Shown in pieces: positions 2,001-14,003 of a DNA stretch of 32,669 bases (position 1 is the stretch's first letter; each line of letters opens with the position of its first letter). The notes below the pieces were generated by a model. The model saw nothing but the letters and a program-made list of their open reading frames with translations. It was not told where the DNA came from and searched no databases. A program made the position numbers and the translations under genes. The stretch comes from Bacteroidia bacterium (lineage in GTDB: Bacteria > Bacteroidota > Bacteroidia > B-17B0 > Aurantibacillaceae): assembly GCA_026414605.1 (NCBI GenBank), contig JAOAIP010000059.1:1-32669 (forward strand). Direction: 5' to 3'.

Positions 2001-3224
2001 ATGTCAAAAGATGTATTATATTCATTGACGCAAGGGGCTTTGATTCCTCAAGAAGAAGCAGTATTATTAAAACAAAAGAAAAATGAGTTAGTAATTGGTA
2101 TTCCTAAGGAAATTGCATTTCAAGAAAATAGAGTGGCTCTGGTTCCTGACGCAGTGGCACTTTTGGTAAATAATGGTCATCGCATTGTTATTGAAAAAGA
2201 TGCGGGGAGGGCTTCTAATTTTGATGATCACGATTATAGTGAAGCCGGTGCAGAAATTGTGTATTCTGCTCAAGATGTTTATGAGAGATCCTCTATTATT
2301 TTGAAAATAGCCCCACCAACCATTGAAGAACTGGAATGGATGAAGCCCAAACAAATTTTGTTTTCAGCATTGCAATTGAGCATACAGCCGAAAGATTTTT
2401 TACAAAAATTGATTGCCAAAAAATTGAATTGTGTAGCGTATGAATTAATCACCGATAGTGAAAATATTTATCCGTTTATTCGTTCAATGGGAGAAATTGC
2501 AGGTGGTACCAGTATTCTTATAGCAGCCGAGTTATTAAGCAATATCAATGGCGGACCAGGATTTTTATTGGGTGGGGTTACAGGCATCTCACCTACTGAA
2601 GTTGTAATTATTGGAGCCGGAACTGTGGGAGAATTTGCAGCACGTGCTGCTATTGGGTTGGGGGCTAATGTAAAAGTATTTGATAATTCTATATATCGAT
2701 TAAGAAGATTACAAAACGCTTTAGGATCAAGGGTATTTACATCTATTATTGTTCCTCGCGTTTTAGAAAAACATTTGAAAACAGCCGATGTAGCAATTGG
2801 TGCAATGCGAGCAACGGGAGCAAGAGCCCCAATCATTGTTACCGAAAGGATGGTTGCAGAAATGAAAGCAGGATCTGTTATTATTGATGTCAGTATTGAT
2901 CAAGGCGGAGTATTTGAGACATCAAGGCCAACCAATCATTCTCAACCTACTTTCAAAAAACACAGTGTAATACATTATTGTGTGCCTAATATCCCTTCAA
3001 GAGTGGCTCGTACTGCTTCTTACGCATTTAGTAATTTACTCGCCCCCATTCTTATCAATATGGGAGAAGAAGGCGGATTTGATGCTCTTATTAGAAGGGA
3101 TTCGGGGGTTCGGAAAGGAGTATATGTGTACAACGGGATATTGACTAATAAATCGCTTTCAGAAATATTTAAACTTCCTTACAAAGACATTAATTTACTT
3201 ACCGCTAATCCATTAGCAAATTGA
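2001..3224 (+). CDS. ald: alanine dehydrogenase/PNT-family oxidoreductase
   Basis: Probably the NAD-dependent interconversion of L-alanine and pyruvate with release of ammonia. At 407 residues it is longer than classical Ald (about 370) because of an N-terminal extension of about 30 residues. The catalytic fold begins at IGIPKEIAFQENRVALVP (Arg44, substrate site), has Lys102 in ILKIAPP, and carries the Rossmann motif GAGTVG at 205-210 followed by an acidic residue (VFD). AGSVIIDVSIDQGG and the PSRVARTAS segment are family hallmarks. The position equivalent to the classical catalytic His (LHLA) reads LQLS, so Gln125 replaces it; activity on alanine is therefore less certain than the family assignment. 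A transhydrogenase alpha subunit is an alternative, but the long second domain and lack of pntB neighbours argue against it. Repeats flank both sides, so it is probably a single-gene unit. Confidence 0.85.
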   Translation: MSKDVLYSLTQGALIPQEEAVLLKQKKNELVIGIPKEIAFQENRVALVPDAVALLVNNGHRIVIEKDAGRASNFDDHDYSEAGAEIVYSAQDVYERSSIILKIAPPTIEELEWMKPKQILFSALQLSIQPKDFLQKLIAKKLNCVAYELITDSENIYPFIRSMGEIAGGTSILIAAELLSNINGGPGFLLGGVTGISPTEVVIIGAGTVGEFAARAAIGLGANVKVFDNSIYRLRRLQNALGSRVFTSIIVPRVLEKHLKTADVAIGAMRATGARAPIIVTERMVAEMKAGSVIIDVSIDQGGVFETSRPTNHSQPTFKKHSVIHYCVPNIPSRVARTASYAFSNLLAPILINMGEEGGFDALIRRDSGVRKGVYVYNGILTNKSLSEIFKLPYKDINLLTANPLAN

Positions 3225-3228
3225 CATT

Positions 3229-3345
3229 TAGTAGAAAGTGGAAAGTGGAAAGTTGAAGGTAAAAAGTTTTATGCCGCTATAACTTTAAATCTTTAAATTG
3301 CAAAAATACTCTCATTACTTTCATACTTTATACATTTCATTTTTA
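3229..3345. repeat. palindromic intergenic repeat, copy 3 (divergent)
   Basis: Starts five bases after the alanine dehydrogenase stop. The arms AGTGGAAAGTTGAAGG and ATTACTTTCATACTTTATAC have the same composition and order as copies 1 and 2. The core AAGTTTTATGCCGCTATAAC is a diverged version of the AAGTATTAAAACGCTA core. It is an older or more decayed member of the family. Confidence 0.5.
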
Positions 3346-3403: not shown

Positions 3404-4372
3404 ATGAAAAAGATATTAGCCAATGATGGAATAGATAAAATTGGAAAAGAACTACTTGAAAAAGCAGGTTTTGTAGTAGATACTGAAAAAATAAGTCAAG
3501 ATAAATTGATTGATATTATTAATGAAAAAGAGTATTCTGTATTAATTGTAAGAAGTGCTACACAAGTTCGTAAGGATATAATAGACGCTTGTCCCAATCT
3601 TAAAATTATTGCTCGTGGTGGTGTAGGAATGGATAATATAGATGTAGAATACGCTAAACAAAAAGGTATTGTTGTTATCAACACACCTGCAGCATCCTCT
3701 CATTCAGTTGCAGAATTGGTATTTGCACATCTTTTATCATTAGTGCGAAAAGTCCATTTATCAAATAGAGAAATGCCTTTATCTGGTAACAAAGAATTTA
3801 ATACTCTTAAGAAAAAATACTCAGATGGTATTGAATTAAAAGATAAAACAATAGGTATTATTGGTTTTGGTAGAATTGGTCAAGAAGTAGCAAAAATTGC
3901 CATTGGCTTACAAATGAATGTTTTGGCTTACGATCCTTATGTAAGTTCTGCCGAATTAGAGATTCTCTTTCCACAGGTGAATAAAAAACTGGATGTAACA
4001 ATCACGACGACAACTTTAGATGATGTATTAATAAATAGTGATTTTATCACGCTTCACGTCCCTGGCGGAGATATTATTTCAAAAAAAGAAATTGAAAAAA
4101 TGAAACAGGGTGTTTTTATTATCAATGCATCAAGGGGTGGGGTAGTGAATGAAAACGATTTATTAGAAGCATTAAATACAGGTAAAGTAGCAGGTGCAGG
4201 ATTGGATGTGTTTATGAATGAACCAACGCCCGATAGTAAATTACTAAGTCATTCTAAAGTATCCGTTACACCTCATATAGGAGCGTCTACAAAAGAAGCA
4301 CAACAAAGAATTGCAGTTGAATTATCTGAAAAAATTATACAGGCATATTCTAAATTACAGATTCATTCATAA
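3404..4372 (+). CDS. serA: D-3-phosphoglycerate dehydrogenase, short form
   Basis: Oxidises 3-phosphoglycerate to 3-phosphohydroxypyruvate with NAD, the first step of serine synthesis. At 322 residues it is the short type: the protein stops right after the catalytic domain and carries no ACT regulatory domain, so serine feedback through ACT is not expected. Visible are RGGVGMDNID (71-80), the NAD-binding GFGRIG (154-159), and the catalytic Arg244 (NASRGGVVNE), Glu273 and His291 (TPHIGAST). Its stop overlaps the ATG of the DUF1015 gene (TAATG), so the two are translationally coupled. The usual partner serC is not in this window. Other D-2-hydroxyacid dehydrogenases share these motifs; the DUF1015 neighbour favours SerA. 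Confidence 0.9.
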   Translation: MKKILANDGIDKIGKELLEKAGFVVDTEKISQDKLIDIINEKEYSVLIVRSATQVRKDIIDACPNLKIIARGGVGMDNIDVEYAKQKGIVVINTPAASSHSVAELVFAHLLSLVRKVHLSNREMPLSGNKEFNTLKKKYSDGIELKDKTIGIIGFGRIGQEVAKIAIGLQMNVLAYDPYVSSAELEILFPQVNKKLDVTITTTTLDDVLINSDFITLHVPGGDIISKKEIEKMKQGVFIINASRGGVVNENDLLEALNTGKVAGAGLDVFMNEPTPDSKLLSHSKVSVTPHIGASTKEAQQRIAVELSEKIIQAYSKLQIHS

Positions 4373-7872: not shown

Positions 7873-8793
7873 CTAAGGTTGAATTATTTTTGTTTTAATG
7901 GTAGTATGTAATTCTTTTTTGAGCGTTTGAATGATGTGGTCGTAAAGTATATTGATTAAATGTTCTTTGATAAAGAGTTTATTTTGAACAATACTAATTT
8001 CACGGGCAGGCACAGGTTCTTTGAAGTACACAACTTTTTTTAATTGATCTTTATGTAAATATCTCATCATTAATTCGGGAATTATAGTTGTTCCGCCATG
8101 AAAGTCAATAAGTTTAATAATAGTATCTAAGTTTCCAGCAATGAATTGAATGGACGAATCACTTTGAGGTTGACAAATTTCTAATACTTGATTTCTCAAA
8201 CAGTGCCCTTCTTTTAGTAACCATAAATTTTGTTTCTTAATGTCTTTTAATTCAATTTTTTTCTTTTTTTGTAAAAATTTATCTGAGGTATAAACGAAAA
8301 ACTGTTCAATAAATAATTTTTTTTCTAAGATGTCTTTGTGATACAAAGGAGTGGCCAAAATGCCTATATCTATGAGACCTTTTTGTAATTGAGATACAAT
8401 TTCATCAGTGGTTATTTCTTGTATTTCAAGTGTTATTTCAGGATATTTTTCAGCAAAAGAGTGAAGAAATAAAGGCAATAAATAGGGAGCAATAGTAGGA
8501 ATAATACCTAACTTTAAATGTCCAGTTTGTTTATGATGAGCATCTTTTGCAATTGATTTTAAGGTTTCAATTTCAAATAAAATTTTTTGGGCTTGTTGAA
8601 TAATCTTTAAACCTTCTTCTGTGGGACTTAATGGATTTTTATGTCTATCAAAAATAATCACATTAAGTTCGTCTTCCAATTTTTTTAGCATCATTGAAAG
8701 GGTAGGTTGTGTAACATAACATTTTTCTGCGGCTTGGGCTAATGAACCGTATTGATAAATAGCCACAAGATATTCCAATTGTTGAAGATTCAT
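7873..8793 (-). CDS. oxyR: OxyR-type LysR transcriptional regulator
   Basis: A 306-residue LysR family regulator. An N-terminal winged helix-turn-helix (about residues 3-62, with LAQAAEKCYVTQPTLS as the helix-turn-helix) is followed by a periplasmic-binding-like effector domain. The redox centre of OxyR is intact: GHCLRNQVLEIC places Cys198 and Cys207 nine residues apart, as Cys199 and Cys208 in E. coli. It should therefore sense peroxide by disulfide formation. No catalase or peroxiredoxin gene lies next to it. Two identical 15-base words 31 bases apart precede its start and may be an operator. The isoaspartyl peptidase gene ends 82 bases upstream on the same strand. Confidence 0.9.
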   Translation of the reverse strand: MNLQQLEYLVAIYQYGSLAQAAEKCYVTQPTLSMMLKKLEDELNVIIFDRHKNPLSPTEEGLKIIQQAQKILFEIETLKSIAKDAHHKQTGHLKLGIIPTIAPYLLPLFLHSFAEKYPEITLEIQEITTDEIVSQLQKGLIDIGILATPLYHKDILEKKLFIEQFFVYTSDKFLQKKKKIELKDIKKQNLWLLKEGHCLRNQVLEICQPQSDSSIQFIAGNLDTIIKLIDFHGGTTIIPELMMRYLHKDQLKKVVYFKEPVPAREISIVQNKLFIKEHLINILYDHIIQTLKKELHTTIKTKIIQP

Positions 8794-8839
8794 ATAAATA
8801 AAATTTAATCTTGCGGCAATTTTAATAAATAAAATTTAA
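8794..8839 (-). promoter_or_regulatory. direct repeat upstream of oxyR
   Basis: The word ATAAATAAAATTTAA (+ strand) occurs at 8794-8808 and again, identical, at 8825-8839. The start-to-start distance is 31 bases, about three helical turns, and the proximal copy touches the oxyR start codon. This could be an autoregulatory site or a chance product of AT-rich DNA. Confidence 0.35.
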
Positions 8840-8875
8840 GGTTTACAACAGGGTGAAATAAATTTAATATCCCAT

Positions 8876-9838
8876 TTATTTCTTAAACAAAAATGTACCT
8901 TGACTTCCATCAGACAATTTATATCCTCTATACATACCAGTAGTATTGAAATCCATAGTGATGTTTCCATTTTTGTCAATGCCGATCATTCCGCCTGTTC
9001 CACCAACAGGAAGCAATTCATCAAACAGTACTTCATTTACTGCTTGCTGAAGGGATTTGTTTTGGTATAACATTTTGAGATGAACAGTATGAGCAGCCGC
9101 ATAGCGAATAAAATATTCACCATAGCCCGTGCAAGATATTGCACAAGTTGAATGGTGGGCATACGTACCAGCACCAATAATAGGTGAGTCGCCCACACGT
9201 CCTGGTAATTTATTCATCATTCCGCCTGTAGATGTTCCTGCGGCTAAATTCCCTTGTTTGTCCAATGCTACGGCACCTACTGTACCGTGTTTTTGCGGCT
9301 TTTGAGATTTTTTCCACTGTTCGTACTGCTTGGTGTCATAAAAGTAAGAAGAATCAACAAGTGGTAGTCCATTTGATGTCCAAAAGTTTTCAGCCCCTTT
9401 GCCAATTATTAATACATGGGGACTTTTGGTCATCACTAAATAAGCGGCTTCTATGGGGTTTTTAATTCTTTGAACACCCGCCACTGCCCCTGCTTTTAAT
9501 GTTTTTCCATCCATAATGGAAGCATCCATTTCTACTTTTCCTTGATTATTAAATACAGAACCTTTTCCGGCATTGAATAGGGGACTATCTTCTAAAATTT
9601 TAATTGCCGCAATGATAGCGTCTATTGCAGTGCCATTGTTTTCAAGAATCTTATAGCCCGTATCTAATGCTTGTTGTAAGGTTTGATGATATTCTTTTTC
9701 TTTTTCAGGTGTAAAATGTTCGGGCAAGATATTTCCTGCCCCGCCGTGTATCACGATGCCAAATTTTTGTTGAGCCATAAAATTTATATTTAATAACGAT
9801 ACTAATAAAATGAAAGTAAGATAATGTTTAGTATGCAT
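8876..9838 (-). CDS. iaaA: isoaspartyl peptidase/L-asparaginase (Ntn hydrolase)
   Basis: A type 2 asparaginase of the N-terminal nucleophile class, which removes isoaspartyl residues from peptides and can hydrolyse asparagine. The 320-residue precursor has an N-terminal export signal ending near FMAQ, so it acts outside the cytoplasm. IHGGAGN (30-36) is the family start motif. Autocleavage should occur at HGT with Thr186 as the new N-terminal nucleophile (HGTVGAVALD), and GRVGDSPIIGAG and the TGTGG-like GGTGGMIG complete the active site. Its start codon lies 12 bases after an RHS pseudogene remnant, so its upstream region has been rearranged. A protein isoaspartyl methyltransferase gene is elsewhere in the window at 28685. 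Confidence 0.92.
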   Translation of the reverse strand: MHTKHYLTFILLVSLLNINFMAQQKFGIVIHGGAGNILPEHFTPEKEKEYHQTLQQALDTGYKILENNGTAIDAIIAAIKILEDSPLFNAGKGSVFNNQGKVEMDASIMDGKTLKAGAVAGVQRIKNPIEAAYLVMTKSPHVLIIGKGAENFWTSNGLPLVDSSYFYDTKQYEQWKKSQKPQKHGTVGAVALDKQGNLAAGTSTGGMMNKLPGRVGDSPIIGAGTYAHHSTCAISCTGYGEYFIRYAAAHTVHLKMLYQNKSLQQAVNEVLFDELLPVGGTGGMIGIDKNGNITMDFNTTGMYRGYKLSDGSQGTFLFKK

Positions 9839-9846
9839 AGTATTTA

Positions 9847-10145
9847 TTTTTTATTTTGTTACTCGTATGTATATTTCTTTCTTTCCGCCTTTTCTTCAGC
9901 ACTTTCTTCACTGATCTATTTCCCATCGCATCATAATTCACCCTCAACTTCGTGCCTAATATCAAGCCATATTTTGGTGGTGTTAGTTTCATGCTATCAA
10001 TTTGTTTTACTTTGTTGTAGTAGGTTCAGTGTATTCGTGTGCTTTCGCTGATATCTTCTATCAATTTGGTGGTGTTTTGGTTGTCTATATCATTCGTAAA
10101 TGAACTCGCACTCATCATATCATTACAGGTATTACTTAATAATTC
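9847..10145 (-). pseudogene. RHS/YD-repeat gene fragment C (3' end)
   Basis: Reading the minus strand gives a clear RHS segment: NDMMSASSFTNDIDNQ, then LIEDISESTRIH-stop-TYYNKVKQI, then VNYDAMGNRSVKK. This is the usual Bacteroidota RHS order (DA..ASNY..DIDNQ, LI.D..E.I..I.W..YGK, YDAMGNRI.K). A TGA at 10026-10028 stands where the family has Trp (TGG), and about eight residues (the GNY.YD.IGN block) seem to be missing after DIDNQ. The fragment overlaps the end of the 108-aa gene and stops 12 bases before the asparaginase start. It fills the 297-base gap between those genes. Bases 9847-9932 are a near copy of 10466-10546, with a four-base length difference. Confidence 0.75.
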
Positions 10146-10462
10146 CAAATAAGTTTATTATCCACTTCTTCACAAACAATTATAGAAGATGTTCCTTCAC
10201 TTAATGCTAAATGAAATTCAATTTTATCAAATGGTTTTTGTAATTCTTTATTAGAGTTTATTAATTCTAATGCTGTTTCTTTAATTAAATTCAGTTCTCT
10301 AATAGCCTCCTCTTTCCTTAAAAAATCTAAATTCGTATAATTTGACCATCCTGTTACTATTAAAGTATTATTTTCCCACTTAAACCATATTGGTACCCCA
10401 TCAATATTTACTCCCATTCCATTTTCAATTAAAACTAATTCTCTTTGAGTTATCTTTCGCAT
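10136..10462 (-). CDS. 108-aa soluble protein in RHS remnant island
   Basis: No family was recognised. The product has no signal peptide or membrane segment, so it should be cytoplasmic. It is mixed alpha/beta in appearance, with a beta-rich N-terminal half (VNIDGVPIWFKWENNTLIVTG) and a helical middle (KEEAIRELNLIKETALELIN). The start lies six bases after RHS fragment B and its stop runs into RHS fragment C on the same strand. Small soluble genes directly downstream of RHS ends are commonly immunity proteins, so that is the best guess from position alone. It could equally be an unrelated passenger gene. The frame is open and intact. Confidence 0.6.
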   Translation of the reverse strand: MRKITQRELVLIENGMGVNIDGVPIWFKWENNTLIVTGWSNYTNLDFLRKEEAIRELNLIKETALELINSNKELQKPFDKIEFHLALSEGTSSIIVCEEVDNKLIWNY

Positions 10463-10465
10463 ATA

Positions 10466-10546
10466 TTTTTATTTTGTTATTTGTATGTATATTTCTTTCT
10501 GCTTTTTCTTCGGCACTTTCTTCACTGATCTATTTCCCATCGCATC
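10466..10546 (-). pseudogene. RHS/YD-repeat gene fragment B
   Basis: The minus strand encodes DAMGNRSVKKVPKKKQKE and ends in TAA at 10469-10471. It is the same RHS terminal segment as in fragment C. A stop codon lies directly before the Asp, so only the last part of the RHS tail survives. It starts eight bases after the stop of the DUF922 gene and ends six bases before the 108-aa gene. Compared with C it differs by four bases in length within the lysine-rich stretch, which shifts the frame in one of the two copies. Confidence 0.7.
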
Positions 10547-10554
10547 TTATTACA

Positions 10555-11235
10555 CTATTTACATCTACATCTTTTAACTATAACCAAATGTTTATTATAC
10601 CATTCCTTTGTCCTCTCTAACTCCTCATCTATCCATTTATCCCATCTTTCTTGGGCAGATCTGCCTTCCTTCTCTATTTCTGAATCGTATTGATTTTGTA
10701 TTTTCCTATATTCATCATAAAGATCATCAATATGCCTTAGGTCTTTCCAACTTAAACTTATTCTAAACCAAAATTTTCTCATTATCTTTTTTCTTAATTT
10801 CCTCGCTATTATCTCCGCTAAATCAAAATGTCTTTGCTCATGATTTAATACATATTGTATGTATTCTTCACTTTTTTTCTTATCTATCCAAGATTTACTT
10901 TTATCCATAGCAGCATATATCCTAAATACAACTTTCCCCCATAATATACTTGTTTCTACACCAACTACTATACCTATATATCCATGAACCTCATATTTCA
11001 ATTCAGGATTTTTTTGTTTTTCCCAAAAATCATCAATATCCAACTTATATTTTTCATCCCATATAATGATATTTTCCTTTTCAGGTAACTTACATTTTTT
11101 TTCTATTTCCATTCTTGCAAATTCCTTTTCACTTAATTTTTTTCTTACTTTATTCTGTCCTAACAATGTTTCACAAAATATACAAAATATAATGAATGTA
11201 TAGAGATATGTATTACTCGTCTTCATTCTTATCAT
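10555..11235 (-). CDS. secreted DUF922-like putative zinc protease
   Basis: A 226-residue protein with an N-terminal export signal (MKTSNTYLYTFIIFCIFCETLLGQ from the second Met). Its centre carries LNHEQRHFDLAEIIARKLR, with an HExxH zinc-site motif at 132-136. HEQxHFDL-E--ARKLR is the signature of DUF922, a predicted metalloprotease family of unknown target. The C-terminal part is helical and highly charged and ends RCRCK. It lies between RHS fragments A and B on the same strand. Isoleucine is mostly ATA and the gene looks more AT-rich than the core genes, which suggests transfer. Either of two in-frame ATGs (11235 or 11226) could be the start. Confidence 0.75.
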   Translation of the reverse strand: MIRMKTSNTYLYTFIIFCIFCETLLGQNKVRKKLSEKEFARMEIEKKCKLPEKENIIIWDEKYKLDIDDFWEKQKNPELKYEVHGYIGIVVGVETSILWGKVVFRIYAAMDKSKSWIDKKKSEEYIQYVLNHEQRHFDLAEIIARKLRKKIMRKFWFRISLSWKDLRHIDDLYDEYRKIQNQYDSEIEKEGRSAQERWDKWIDEELERTKEWYNKHLVIVKRCRCK

Positions 11236-11257
11236 TTTTTCATTATTATTTTGTTAC

Positions 11258-11386
11258 TCATATATTGCTATCACTATTACCACTTGCCACAATTGCCTTC
11301 ACATACCTTGTCAATCTCATAATATTCCCATCTCTATCATAACTAAACCTTTCTCTATATCCAATATCAATTATATTTCCAAAAAT
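11258..11386 (-). pseudogene. RHS/YD-repeat gene fragment A
   Basis: The minus strand encodes FGNIIDIGYRERFSYDRDGN followed by IMRLTRY, then TGA at 11258-11260. YRERFSYDxDGNIxxLTR is a typical YD repeat of Bacteroidota RHS proteins. It corresponds to a part of the protein that normally precedes the segment in fragment C. A stop codon lies just upstream in frame and no start is present. It sits between the 211-aa secreted gene and the DUF922 gene; the remaining 75 bases up to 11462 hold no recognisable feature. Confidence 0.7.
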
Positions 11387-11462
11387 TCAATCAATCAATC
11401 ATCAGTAGTTTTCATCCAAAAAAATTTTTTTAACTAATTTACAATTCAACTTAAAACTTGAT

Positions 11463-12098
11463 TTACTTGATAATATAGTAACCACTTGGTTTTTCACCCC
11501 ACCCTACATACCAAAATCTTTTATATTCAACAATCCATTTAAATTCCCTATCTGAAGCAATTCTTGAAATACTTACATATTTTGATTCCTTAGGAAAATA
11601 AAAATTTATTTTTTCTTTTCTAATATTTCTATTTAATAATAGTATCGTAATTATAATGTTTTTATTACTTTTAAACCAACAATGTATCTTTGGGCCACAA
11701 CCATTATTATAAAGATGTTCCCTATTTGAAATTAAATATAAATATGGCTCTTCATTTATAAAAATGTAAACTGAGTCTCCTTGATTGAGATCAAAAACAA
11801 TGTGTCGATATTTTAATTTTACTTTTCCAAGATTAAATTTTTCATCAATATATGGTTTATCTTCAATATAACTATAATGCATTACCATCTTTGTCGTGTC
11901 CATTATTTTCTTAATATATTTTTTATGTTCTTTATTTTTAACCTCAAAACACATCGATGAAATAATCGAATCACACCTTTTTTCTATCATCTCCAAAATT
12001 TTATCAATATCCATATTTGTCTGTGAATTTACCAAGTTGCTGATAAAAAAAGTGATTAAAAATAATGCTTTTTTAATTAGATTGTTGTTTCTCAACAT
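11463..12098 (-). CDS. 211-aa secreted protein of unknown function
   Basis: No family was recognised. The product starts with a signal peptide (MLRNNNLIKKALFLITFFISN, then a cut near VNSQ) and is otherwise hydrophilic with a beta-rich C-terminal half (SVYIFINEEPYLYLIS, FKWIVEYKRFWYVGWGEKPSGY). Four cysteines occur in the mature part. It should reach the periplasm or envelope. Like the DUF922 gene it is AT-rich with many ATA codons and lies directly upstream of an RHS remnant on the same strand, so it probably belongs to the same acquired island. The function is unknown; it could be an immunity-type or passenger gene. Confidence 0.65.
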   Translation of the reverse strand: MLRNNNLIKKALFLITFFISNLVNSQTNMDIDKILEMIEKRCDSIISSMCFEVKNKEHKKYIKKIMDTTKMVMHYSYIEDKPYIDEKFNLGKVKLKYRHIVFDLNQGDSVYIFINEEPYLYLISNREHLYNNGCGPKIHCWFKSNKNIIITILLLNRNIRKEKINFYFPKESKYVSISRIASDREFKWIVEYKRFWYVGWGEKPSGYYIIK

Positions 12099-12319
12099 TT
12101 TCTTTTATTTTTCTATTTGTTTTTTTGTTAAATTTATTGCTTTTGATTCATCTTCCTTATTAACTATTCACAGGTTGTATTTTATCACAAAGAACACAAA
12201 GGATTTGCATAAAGATTTAAAAGCATCTTTAGTATATTCTATTTGTTCATAAGGGGCTGCACTTATCTTTTTGTAGTTGATTAAAGCCAATTGGAATTAA
12301 TTATTAAGCATTAATAAAA
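12099..12319. other. intergenic spacer with dispersed repeat
   Basis: No gene is seen. Bases 12183-12208 read ATCACAAAGAACACAAAGG followed by ATTTGC. This resembles the ACCACAAAG...CACAAAGCAC word at 13663-13691 and the opposite-strand TTTGTGTT...CCTTGTG at 16783-16814, a common type of intergenic repeat. Confidence 0.4.
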
Positions 12320-13096
12320 TCACCATTTTCCACCAGAACCGCCGCCACCAAAACTTCCACCACCAAAGCCACTCCATCCGCTGCTTCCAGAAGATGAACC
12401 CCAAGAAGAACCACCTCCATAAAAACCACCACCACCATAAAATCTTCTTCCAGAAGTGTAAACAACCGCATTGTTTTTCTTAAACACAAAATATAAAATT
12501 ATCAAAATGATAATAAATACAATAATAGCACTTGAATTTGCATCATTGTCGGGCAAGTCCTTTTCGCTAATTTCACCTTTTGCCAATTGCATTAGAGCAT
12601 TTAGTCCTTTGTCTAATCCTTCATAAAAACGACCTTCTGCAAAAAGTGGTTGCATAATATTTTCACGAATTTTTTTGGTTGCTAAATCTGTAATGGCACC
12701 TTCTAATCCTAAACCTACCGCTATAAATAATTCTCTTTCGCCTTTTTTACCCGTAGGTTTTATAAGTATTACAATGCCATTGTCTTTGCCTTTTTTACCA
12801 ATGCCCCATTTTTCACCCAATAATGTAGCATATTCTGCAGCCGTATATCCTCCAAAATCATCTACAACCACTACCGCAATTTGATTACTTGTTTCTCTAC
12901 TAAATTTTTCTAATTTTTCTTCTATAGCATTGGCTTCTTCGGGACTTAAAAAATTTGGAAATTCTTTTGAAAAATTATTATATAATCTTGGTGGATTGGG
13001 CTTTTCAGGAATTTGAGAATGGACATCAAATAAAAAAGACCCTGAAAATATCGCAATCACCAAGAGTAGCCAATGATTAAAAAAACTTGTTTTCAT
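12320..13096 (-). CDS. TPM-domain (YgcG-like) exported membrane protein
   Basis: A 258-residue protein with a signal peptide (residues 1-28, ending VHSQ) and a TPM domain (also called DUF477 or TLP18.3/MOLO-1) at about 40-175: LSPEEANAIEEKLEKFS, QIAVVVVDDFGG, AEYATLLGEKWGIGKKGKDNGIVI. A single membrane helix (SSAIIVFIIILIILYFVF, about 188-205) follows. The end is a flexible glycine/serine tail (FYGGGSSWGSSSGSSGWSGF and on). This layout is that of YgcG-type proteins, whose role is not firmly known; some family members have phosphatase activity. Two bases separate it from the second TPM gene upstream, so they form one operon. The lemA gene that usually completes this group is absent. Confidence 0.88.
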   Translation of the reverse strand: MKTSFFNHWLLLVIAIFSGSFLFDVHSQIPEKPNPPRLYNNFSKEFPNFLSPEEANAIEEKLEKFSRETSNQIAVVVVDDFGGYTAAEYATLLGEKWGIGKKGKDNGIVILIKPTGKKGERELFIAVGLGLEGAITDLATKKIRENIMQPLFAEGRFYEGLDKGLNALMQLAKGEISEKDLPDNDANSSAIIVFIIILIILYFVFKKNNAVVYTSGRRFYGGGGFYGGGSSWGSSSGSSGWSGFGGGSFGGGGSGGKW

Positions 13097-13098
13097 AG

Positions 13099-13536
13099 TT
13101 AATAAGAAATTTCGTTACTTAATTCATTAGGATTATCTTCTGATGGTGGAAAATATCTGGCAAGTTCATTTCCAATAATAAGAATACATTCACATAATGT
13201 TTCGGATTTGTGATGATTTTGTTTTAAGGCATTAATAAGTTTTTGTGTAAGTTGATTCCATAGTTCTGATGGAACTTTTTGATAAATACCAACATCTCCA
13301 ATAATGGCTAATTTTCTACTGATTACAGCAAAATAAAATAATACACCATTTCTATTTTTAGTGAGATGCATTTGATTTTTGATAAAAACTTTTTCAGCAC
13401 GTTTTAATGGATTAGTAAAACAAAAGTTTTCAATATGAACTCGTATTTCTGCAGATGTTTTTTCTTCTGCATTTTGAATGGCTTGTATAATTTGTGCTTC
13501 TTCTTCTTTAGTAAAGAAATTTTTTGCAAAACGCAT
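13099..13536 (-). CDS. TPM-domain protein without signal peptide
   Basis: A 145-residue protein made of one TPM domain: FFTKEEEAQIIQAIQNAEEK, SAEIRVHIE, then NGVLFYFAVISRKLAIIGDVG. It has no export signal, unlike its partner. In the usual lemA-TPM-TPM arrangement this is the short middle gene; here it is first, and repeats start about 40 bases upstream. A possible -7 element TATCTTTG lies at 13555-13562 on the minus strand, about 19 bases before the ATG, so the pair is probably expressed from its own promoter. Confidence 0.85.
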   Translation of the reverse strand: MRFAKNFFTKEEEAQIIQAIQNAEEKTSAEIRVHIENFCFTNPLKRAEKVFIKNQMHLTKNRNGVLFYFAVISRKLAIIGDVGIYQKVPSELWNQLTQKLINALKQNHHKSETLCECILIIGNELARYFPPSEDNPNELSNEISY

Positions 13537-13639
13537 AATCTATAACATTGAATGCAAAGATAAGTAAAAATATAGTAAAAAGTTGAAAGTAAAAAGTTGA
13601 AAGTAAAATGTGTAATTTGAAAAACAGAAAGAATTTTTG

Positions 13640-14003
13640 TTACTAATCAGCACTTCAAACTTAACCACAAAGAAAAACTCACACAAAGCACACAATTAGT
13701 TTAAAGTTGAAAGTTAAAAGTATAAAGTATAAAGTGTAATGTGATGTGTCCCGTAGGGACAAAATATGGGTAGCCCCGAAGGGGCAAAATACAATAGCAC
13801 AGGGCAAAGCCCTGTGAAAATAAATCCACACTATTTCAAGCCCTGAAAGGGCGACACCTATAAAGAAGAAAGTTAAAAGTTAAAAGTAGAAAGTATTAAA
13901 ACGCTATATCATTATATTGAAAAATATTTCCTTTTACTTTCAAACTTTATACTTTCCACTTTGTACTAATGTGTTCTTGGTGGTAAAATATTAATCTGAA
14001 CAG
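13640..14003. repeat. palindromic intergenic repeat, copy 2, with insertion
   Basis: Same order of parts as copy 1 at 1809-1970: TTACT...GCACTTCAAACTTAACCACAA, AATTAGTTTAAAGTTGAAAG, core 13891-13930 (39 of 40 bases identical to 1861-1900), arm TTTTACTTTC...ACTTTCCACTT, and TGGTAAAATATTAATCTGAAC. It is longer because the left arm is interrupted by extra arm units and by the hairpin block at 13746-13857. Confidence 0.75.
13746..13857. repeat. block of four GC-rich hairpins
   Basis: Four compact inverted repeats follow one another: GTCCCgtaGGGAC (13748-13760), GCCCCgaaGGGGC (13773-13785), CACAGGGCaaaGCCCTGTG (13798-13816) and GCCCTgaaAGGGC (13840-13852). The block is framed by GTGTC and GACAC. 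It is the only GC-rich stretch in the spacer. Similar short palindromes are known as dispersed REP-like elements in Bacteroidota, mobilised in trans by REP-associated tyrosine transposases; no such gene is in this window. Confidence 0.75.

Follow-up and report, generated by a model that had tools for sequence, protein, structure and literature searches.

A decayed RHS locus in a Bacteroidia genome that probably retains orphan immunity genes

In rhs loci, incoming tips have been proposed to displace the resident tips by recombination in the core, which would leave strings of core fragments and tips, and GC-poor regions carrying core and tip fragments are found behind rhs genes (Jackson et al. 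2009, PMC2935791). In Dickeya dadantii, the small genes that follow rhs genes were shown to confer immunity, and both an expressed orphan CDI immunity gene and orphan rhs-CT/rhsI modules have been described (Poole et al. 2011, PMC3150448). The T6SS clusters of Vibrio cholerae keep immunity genes after effector loss, by sequential displacement (Kirchberger et al. 2017, PMC5361080).

The locus described here lies within a 32,669-nt stretch of DNA (the window), which is contig C5 of a 2.48-Mb Bacteroidia genome. It is a 2.3-kb island in which three small intact genes alternate with three dead pieces of an RHS toxin gene (scraps A, B and C), flanked by a TPM-domain gene on one side and an asparaginase gene on the other. 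Read along the minus strand from 12098 to 9838, the 211-aa gene comes first, followed by scrap A, the 226-aa DUF922-like gene, scrap B, the 108-aa gene, scrap C and the asparaginase gene (Table 1). No tip ORF occurs at the locus between any scrap and the next gene, an intact RHS gene is absent upstream at the island, and there is no small gene between scrap C and the asparaginase gene. No other stretch of this size in the window is as poor in GC as the island: the 2.26-kb minimum, at 0.264 (window mean 0.317, sd 0.022), begins at 10051, within the island, and this low GC fits a foreign origin. The region adjoining the island (12320–13536, minus strand) carries two neighbouring genes with TPM_phosphatase domains. 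Intergenic repeats, about 72–84% identical and in both direct and inverted orientation, are present in the window at 1841–1969, 3232–3343, 13573–13744 and 13871–14002, and also at the start of contig C13.

Table 1. Features of the RHS island and its asparaginase flank, in window coordinates and in the order of the minus strand.
Feature	Coordinates	Strand	Evidence
211-aa secreted gene, intact, candidate orphan immunity gene	11463..12098	(-)	ORF; signal-like N-terminus by eye
Scrap A (YRERFSYDRDGNIMRLTR), RHS core region upstream of C	11300..11410	(-)	relatives-only RHS profile
Scrap A, 3' end common to scrap C (ATATGAGTAACAAAATAATAA)	11243..11263	(-)	21-bp local alignment A-C
226-aa DUF922-like gene, intact, signal-like N-terminus, HEXXH motif (HEQRH)	10555..11235	(-)	Pfam DUF922 below cut-off
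Scrap B (DAMGNRSVKK...EIYIQITK*)	10466..10555	(-)	88% DNA identity to 9848-9941
108-aa gene, putative member of an uncatalogued RHS immunity-gene family	10136..10462	(-)	homologue position
Scrap C (NDIDNQ...YDAMGNRSVKK...), RHS core	9847..10127	(-)	RHS profiles and C13 identity
Asparaginase (Asparaginase_2), chromosomal flank	8876..9838	(-)	Pfam E 9e-110

The scraps were identified with two RHS profiles. The first was built from RHS segments of relatives alone, with own-genome sequences excluded, and matched scrap C at E = 5.2e-11 and scrap A at E = 4.2e-6; scrap B is too short for a strong score alone (E = 0.0024 over six sequences), and the passenger genes gave no match to this profile. The second, which includes one row from the genome itself (C13) with the region of A lying outside that row, was searched against the whole genome and returned C at E = 4.6e-15 and A at E = 6.6e-4 with three in-frame stops. 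Scrap C shares 79% protein identity (E = 6e-33) with the scrap on C13, and 88% DNA identity with C13:1366–1528. Scrap B is a copy of the 3' part of C, the two being 88% identical in DNA sequence over 94 bp (E = 5.8e-28). All three scraps are broken, C by an internal TGA and a deletion, with its sequence cut short after KEIYIR, and A by stop codons that close its short frame. A previous, sequence-only reading of this DNA had given the gene order and coordinates as they are found here, and had taken the fragments for RHS, which the significant scores of A and C in both profiles bear out. It had also placed A upstream of C and regarded B and C as duplicates of one tail; the profile positions (A 58–81, C 104–191, B 171–187) show that this ordering was right, with B falling within C, and the DNA identity of B and C agrees. 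Its statement that only RHS scraps and passengers are left holds as well: nothing of the toxin parts survives, and each of the small genes is intact.

All three scraps have a common 3' end, each about 4–10 bp ahead of the next start codon. Scraps B and C both end '...ATATACATAC[GA]A[GA]TAACAAAATAA', being cut identically after the KEIYIR codons and then continuing into TAACAAAATAA, while A terminates in a 21-bp match to the end of C (dinucleotide-shuffle p ~8e-4). Scrap B fills its entire gap, its first base being the last base of the stop codon of the DUF922-like gene and its end lying about 4 bp before the start of the 108-aa gene; scrap C starts about 8 bp past the stop codon of the 108-aa gene and ends about 10 bp before the asparaginase gene. 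In intact copies the RHS core continues past the cut point (KEVYVRDAQGN on C53 of the same genome, KDIYLRDPQGN in the same-genus genome G002), and in relatives roughly 150 further residues of core, judged by eye, precede the tip. Since the core of the relatives runs past the cut point, the core end and the tip are missing from all three scraps. The common cut point would also fit a second history, the copying of a single piece that had been truncated beforehand.

Neither Pfam nor NCBIfam offers a credible family for the 108-aa gene, and 87 genomes of the family yielded no credible homologue; three weak family hits turned out to fall in an outer-membrane-factor-like protein and a secreted repeat protein, and were rejected as chance. 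Among 84,980 species genomes scanned, four homologues were found (27–31% identity overall), and the resulting family has 18 invariant columns, VTGWS.Y.N among them. In Parapedobacter composti (L176), an RHS gene that has an Rhs_assc_core match (E = 4e-13) and an intact tip is followed by the homologue, whose ATG comes 1 bp after the RHS stop codon. The homologue of an Owenweeksia MAG is part of an RHS tip array, in which a related tip and a further small gene precede it. The RHS-distant members, two of the five (L177, L178), stand alone. In Flavobacteriales UBA852 (L178/L132; L178 5438–6318), the family gene is found beside broken IS3 transposase pieces, a setting that suggests an orphan gene moved without RHS. 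The predicted structure of the 108-aa protein (pLDDT 80) gave no credible PDB match in a fold search (best E 0.023, TM <0.45).

By the position of the Parapedobacter homologue, directly downstream of an RHS tip, the 108-aa gene is identified at the sequence level as a probable RhsI-type immunity gene; the copy in the window follows scrap B, with no tip. Because this relative lies directly behind a living RHS toxin, the island resembles a reserve of protective genes that was retained when the corresponding weapons decayed. With no toxin tip left, no passenger is paired in place with its toxin, and a search for a partner tip of the Parapedobacter type, run without a positive-control genome, found none in 59 relatives or in the window's genome. 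That tip, which starts YLYHYTS, was considered as an ADP-ribosyltransferase type, but Pfam gave no support and no activity is therefore claimed.

For the two other passengers, an immunity role is suggested by their position at the locus. The DUF922-like gene scores E = 1.7e-4 (22.2 bits) against Pfam DUF922, under the curated 27-bit cut-off, and its homologues share about 25–41% identity with it, chiefly across the middle and C-terminal portions. A joint query of seven passengers matched 99 of 395 genomes of the class, nearly all matches being to the DUF922-like gene, although at most two candidates per genome received a score and the absence of the other passengers cannot be read from it. None of 29 loci carrying DUF922-like relatives had RHS nearby (about 1.4 kb either side). 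This gene is thus the weak link in reading the small genes as RHS passengers, with no support beyond the island. The 211-aa gene has a GC content of 0.244 (window mean 0.316), no homologue in the 395 class genomes or plasmids, and no credible Pfam or NCBIfam family; its predicted structure was too poor for use (pLDDT 43).

RHS sequences occur at several other places in the same genome. On C13, a 143-aa gene is followed by the scrap that is 88% identical to C. On C35, three composite repeats, each an IS30-like scrap joined to an RHS scrap (about 400–446 bp, 91–93% identical), are spaced by three unrelated orphan genes of 148, 120 and 174 aa. Contig C53 carries two units. In the first, an RHS fragment has a CHAP-amidase tip and precedes a 265-aa gene; in the second, an RHS fragment has a 416-aa frame and precedes a 172-aa lipoprotein-like gene. 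RHS core also makes up the 3.1-kb contig C68. With the intact units on C53 and the scrap and orphan-gene places on C13 and C35, the genome holds both intact and decayed RHS arrays. The units on C53 (L133, 1311–5018) have a small gene directly behind each tip, and the second tip has an HETRH motif. The IS30-transposase-like scrap repeat (about 300–440 bp, partly RHS-fused) is located at 2871–3303, 3905–4349 and 4794–5190 of L050 (C35) and at 461–815 of L049 (C13); it has 15 matches genome-wide, spacing unrelated orphan genes. In the same genus, G002 has arrays of RHS fragment, tip and small gene on two contigs (L089, L090). A clean intact layout is seen in G043:C63 (L091, 5800–15718), where RHS fragments have different tips with one or two small genes after each. 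The window locus can be derived from a layout of the G002/G043 type through tip loss.

The favoured reading, with a probability of about 0.7, is that the island is what remains of a displaced RHS module array, now decayed, whose immunity genes have outlasted the toxins. The low GC of the island and the failure to detect the partner tip in the window's genome also speak for it; against it stand the lack of any tip or upstream RHS gene at the island, the two 108-aa family members away from RHS, the 29 DUF922-like loci without RHS and the lack of homologues of the 211-aa gene. An RHS weapon would swap its toxic tip plus the downstream immunity gene through recombination in the core, and displaced modules (core fragment, tip and immunity gene) would accumulate behind the RHS gene. 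The modules at the island would then have lost their tips and the ends of their core fragments, and what was left of the core would have been broken. The small genes, or at least the one of 108 aa, would persist as orphan immunity genes that could guard the cell against neighbours still using matching tips. Core fragments are detectable by homology, as in displaced module arrays, but the variable toxic tip after each core fragment is lacking, and with no tips the island is classed as a decayed derivative and not as an intact array. Sequence comparison establishes the RHS identity and decay of the scraps, their module-like order and the linkage of the 108-aa family to an RHS toxin, and intact arrays exist elsewhere in the same genome and genus. 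Displacement probably built the array, the 211-aa and DUF922-like genes may be immunity genes too, and the passenger genes are presumably expressed and protective.

In a distinctly less probable history, the truncated RHS piece turned into a dispersed repeat once the toxin was dead, and recombination later placed unrelated genes between its copies, so that the passengers would be mixed and not necessarily immunity genes. The shared 3' truncation of B and C, together with the last 21 bp of A, is easier to understand if an already truncated piece was copied, the composite on C35 recurs three times at 91–93% between three unrelated orphan genes, and the DUF922-like family has no RHS linkage elsewhere. 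However, the 108-aa family has a link to an RHS toxin, and the passengers of the island, C13 and C35 (108–226 aa) match the small genes behind tips in intact arrays in both size and position. It is also conceivable, though rather doubtful, that the truncated RHS scrap itself is a recombination platform, alone here and fused to an IS30-like scrap on C35, which spaced and collected stand-alone genes after toxin loss; toxin-free, integron-like arrays of orphan defence genes would then exist. The insertion by chance of RHS fragments among ordinary resident genes, functionally unrelated to them, would suit the small size of the scraps and a DUF922-like gene from a common family, but it is improbable: the scraps fill their gaps almost exactly, both C13 and C35 repeat the alternation, and the link between the 108-aa family and RHS already disfavours it. 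That free-standing effectors or tip remnants, and not immunity genes, are among the small genes, for example the DUF922-like protein as a protease by its intact HEXXH motif and signal-like N-terminus, is very improbable, as the 108-aa family is encoded separately, immediately behind the tip, like immunity genes, and the DUF922-like relatives are not RHS-linked.

For the decayed module array, the sequence-only reading can be followed in part. Its proposal that passengers were kept after the RHS toxin decayed, and its expectation of relatives with an intact RHS gene and these passengers downstream, apply to the 108-aa gene, through the homologue of P. composti; the 29 DUF922-like loci support neither, and the 211-aa gene offers no homologue for comparison. 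The term 'graveyard' is apt for the toxin, but not for the passengers, which look like the retained part. A 'recombination hot spot', in the sense of a conserved chromosomal site, was not borne out, as the asparaginase gene has different neighbours in two genomes of the same genus and one of the same family (G001, G002, G005); synteny being unconserved, comparison of the flanks gave no empty site.

The locus would provide a concrete Bacteroidota-type case of RHS immunity genes surviving the loss of their toxins. The putative immunity-gene family lies outside Pfam and NCBIfam, and with its partner tip named in P. composti, cross-species orphan protection is testable. Tiny RHS scraps could also serve as markers for orphan immunity genes that are invisible to profile libraries.

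The kind of locus is already known; this member and the 108-aa family are new within the libraries searched. Orphan immunity-gene arrays in Bacteroidota-type bacteria are also found as rAID clusters, which the island would resemble in this respect, but those are recombinase-associated and T6SS-directed, whereas a Pfam scan recognised no recombinase among the genes at 7873–13536. As in the orphan arrays of V. cholerae (PMC5361080), immunity genes appear to have been kept and effectors lost. Those arrays, however, are T6SS effector loci without RHS scraps, and their orphans closely match the immunity genes of effector–immunity pairs in other strains, whereas the island has only a distant homologue pair. 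Enterobacterial arrays lie behind an rhs gene, and the island differs from them in having neither an intact rhs gene nor a tip. It is nevertheless like the dissociated rhs arrays of enterobacteria (PMC2935791, PMC3150448), which also include core fragments without an obvious tip, in that core fragments of variable length alternate with small genes in a GC-poor stretch.
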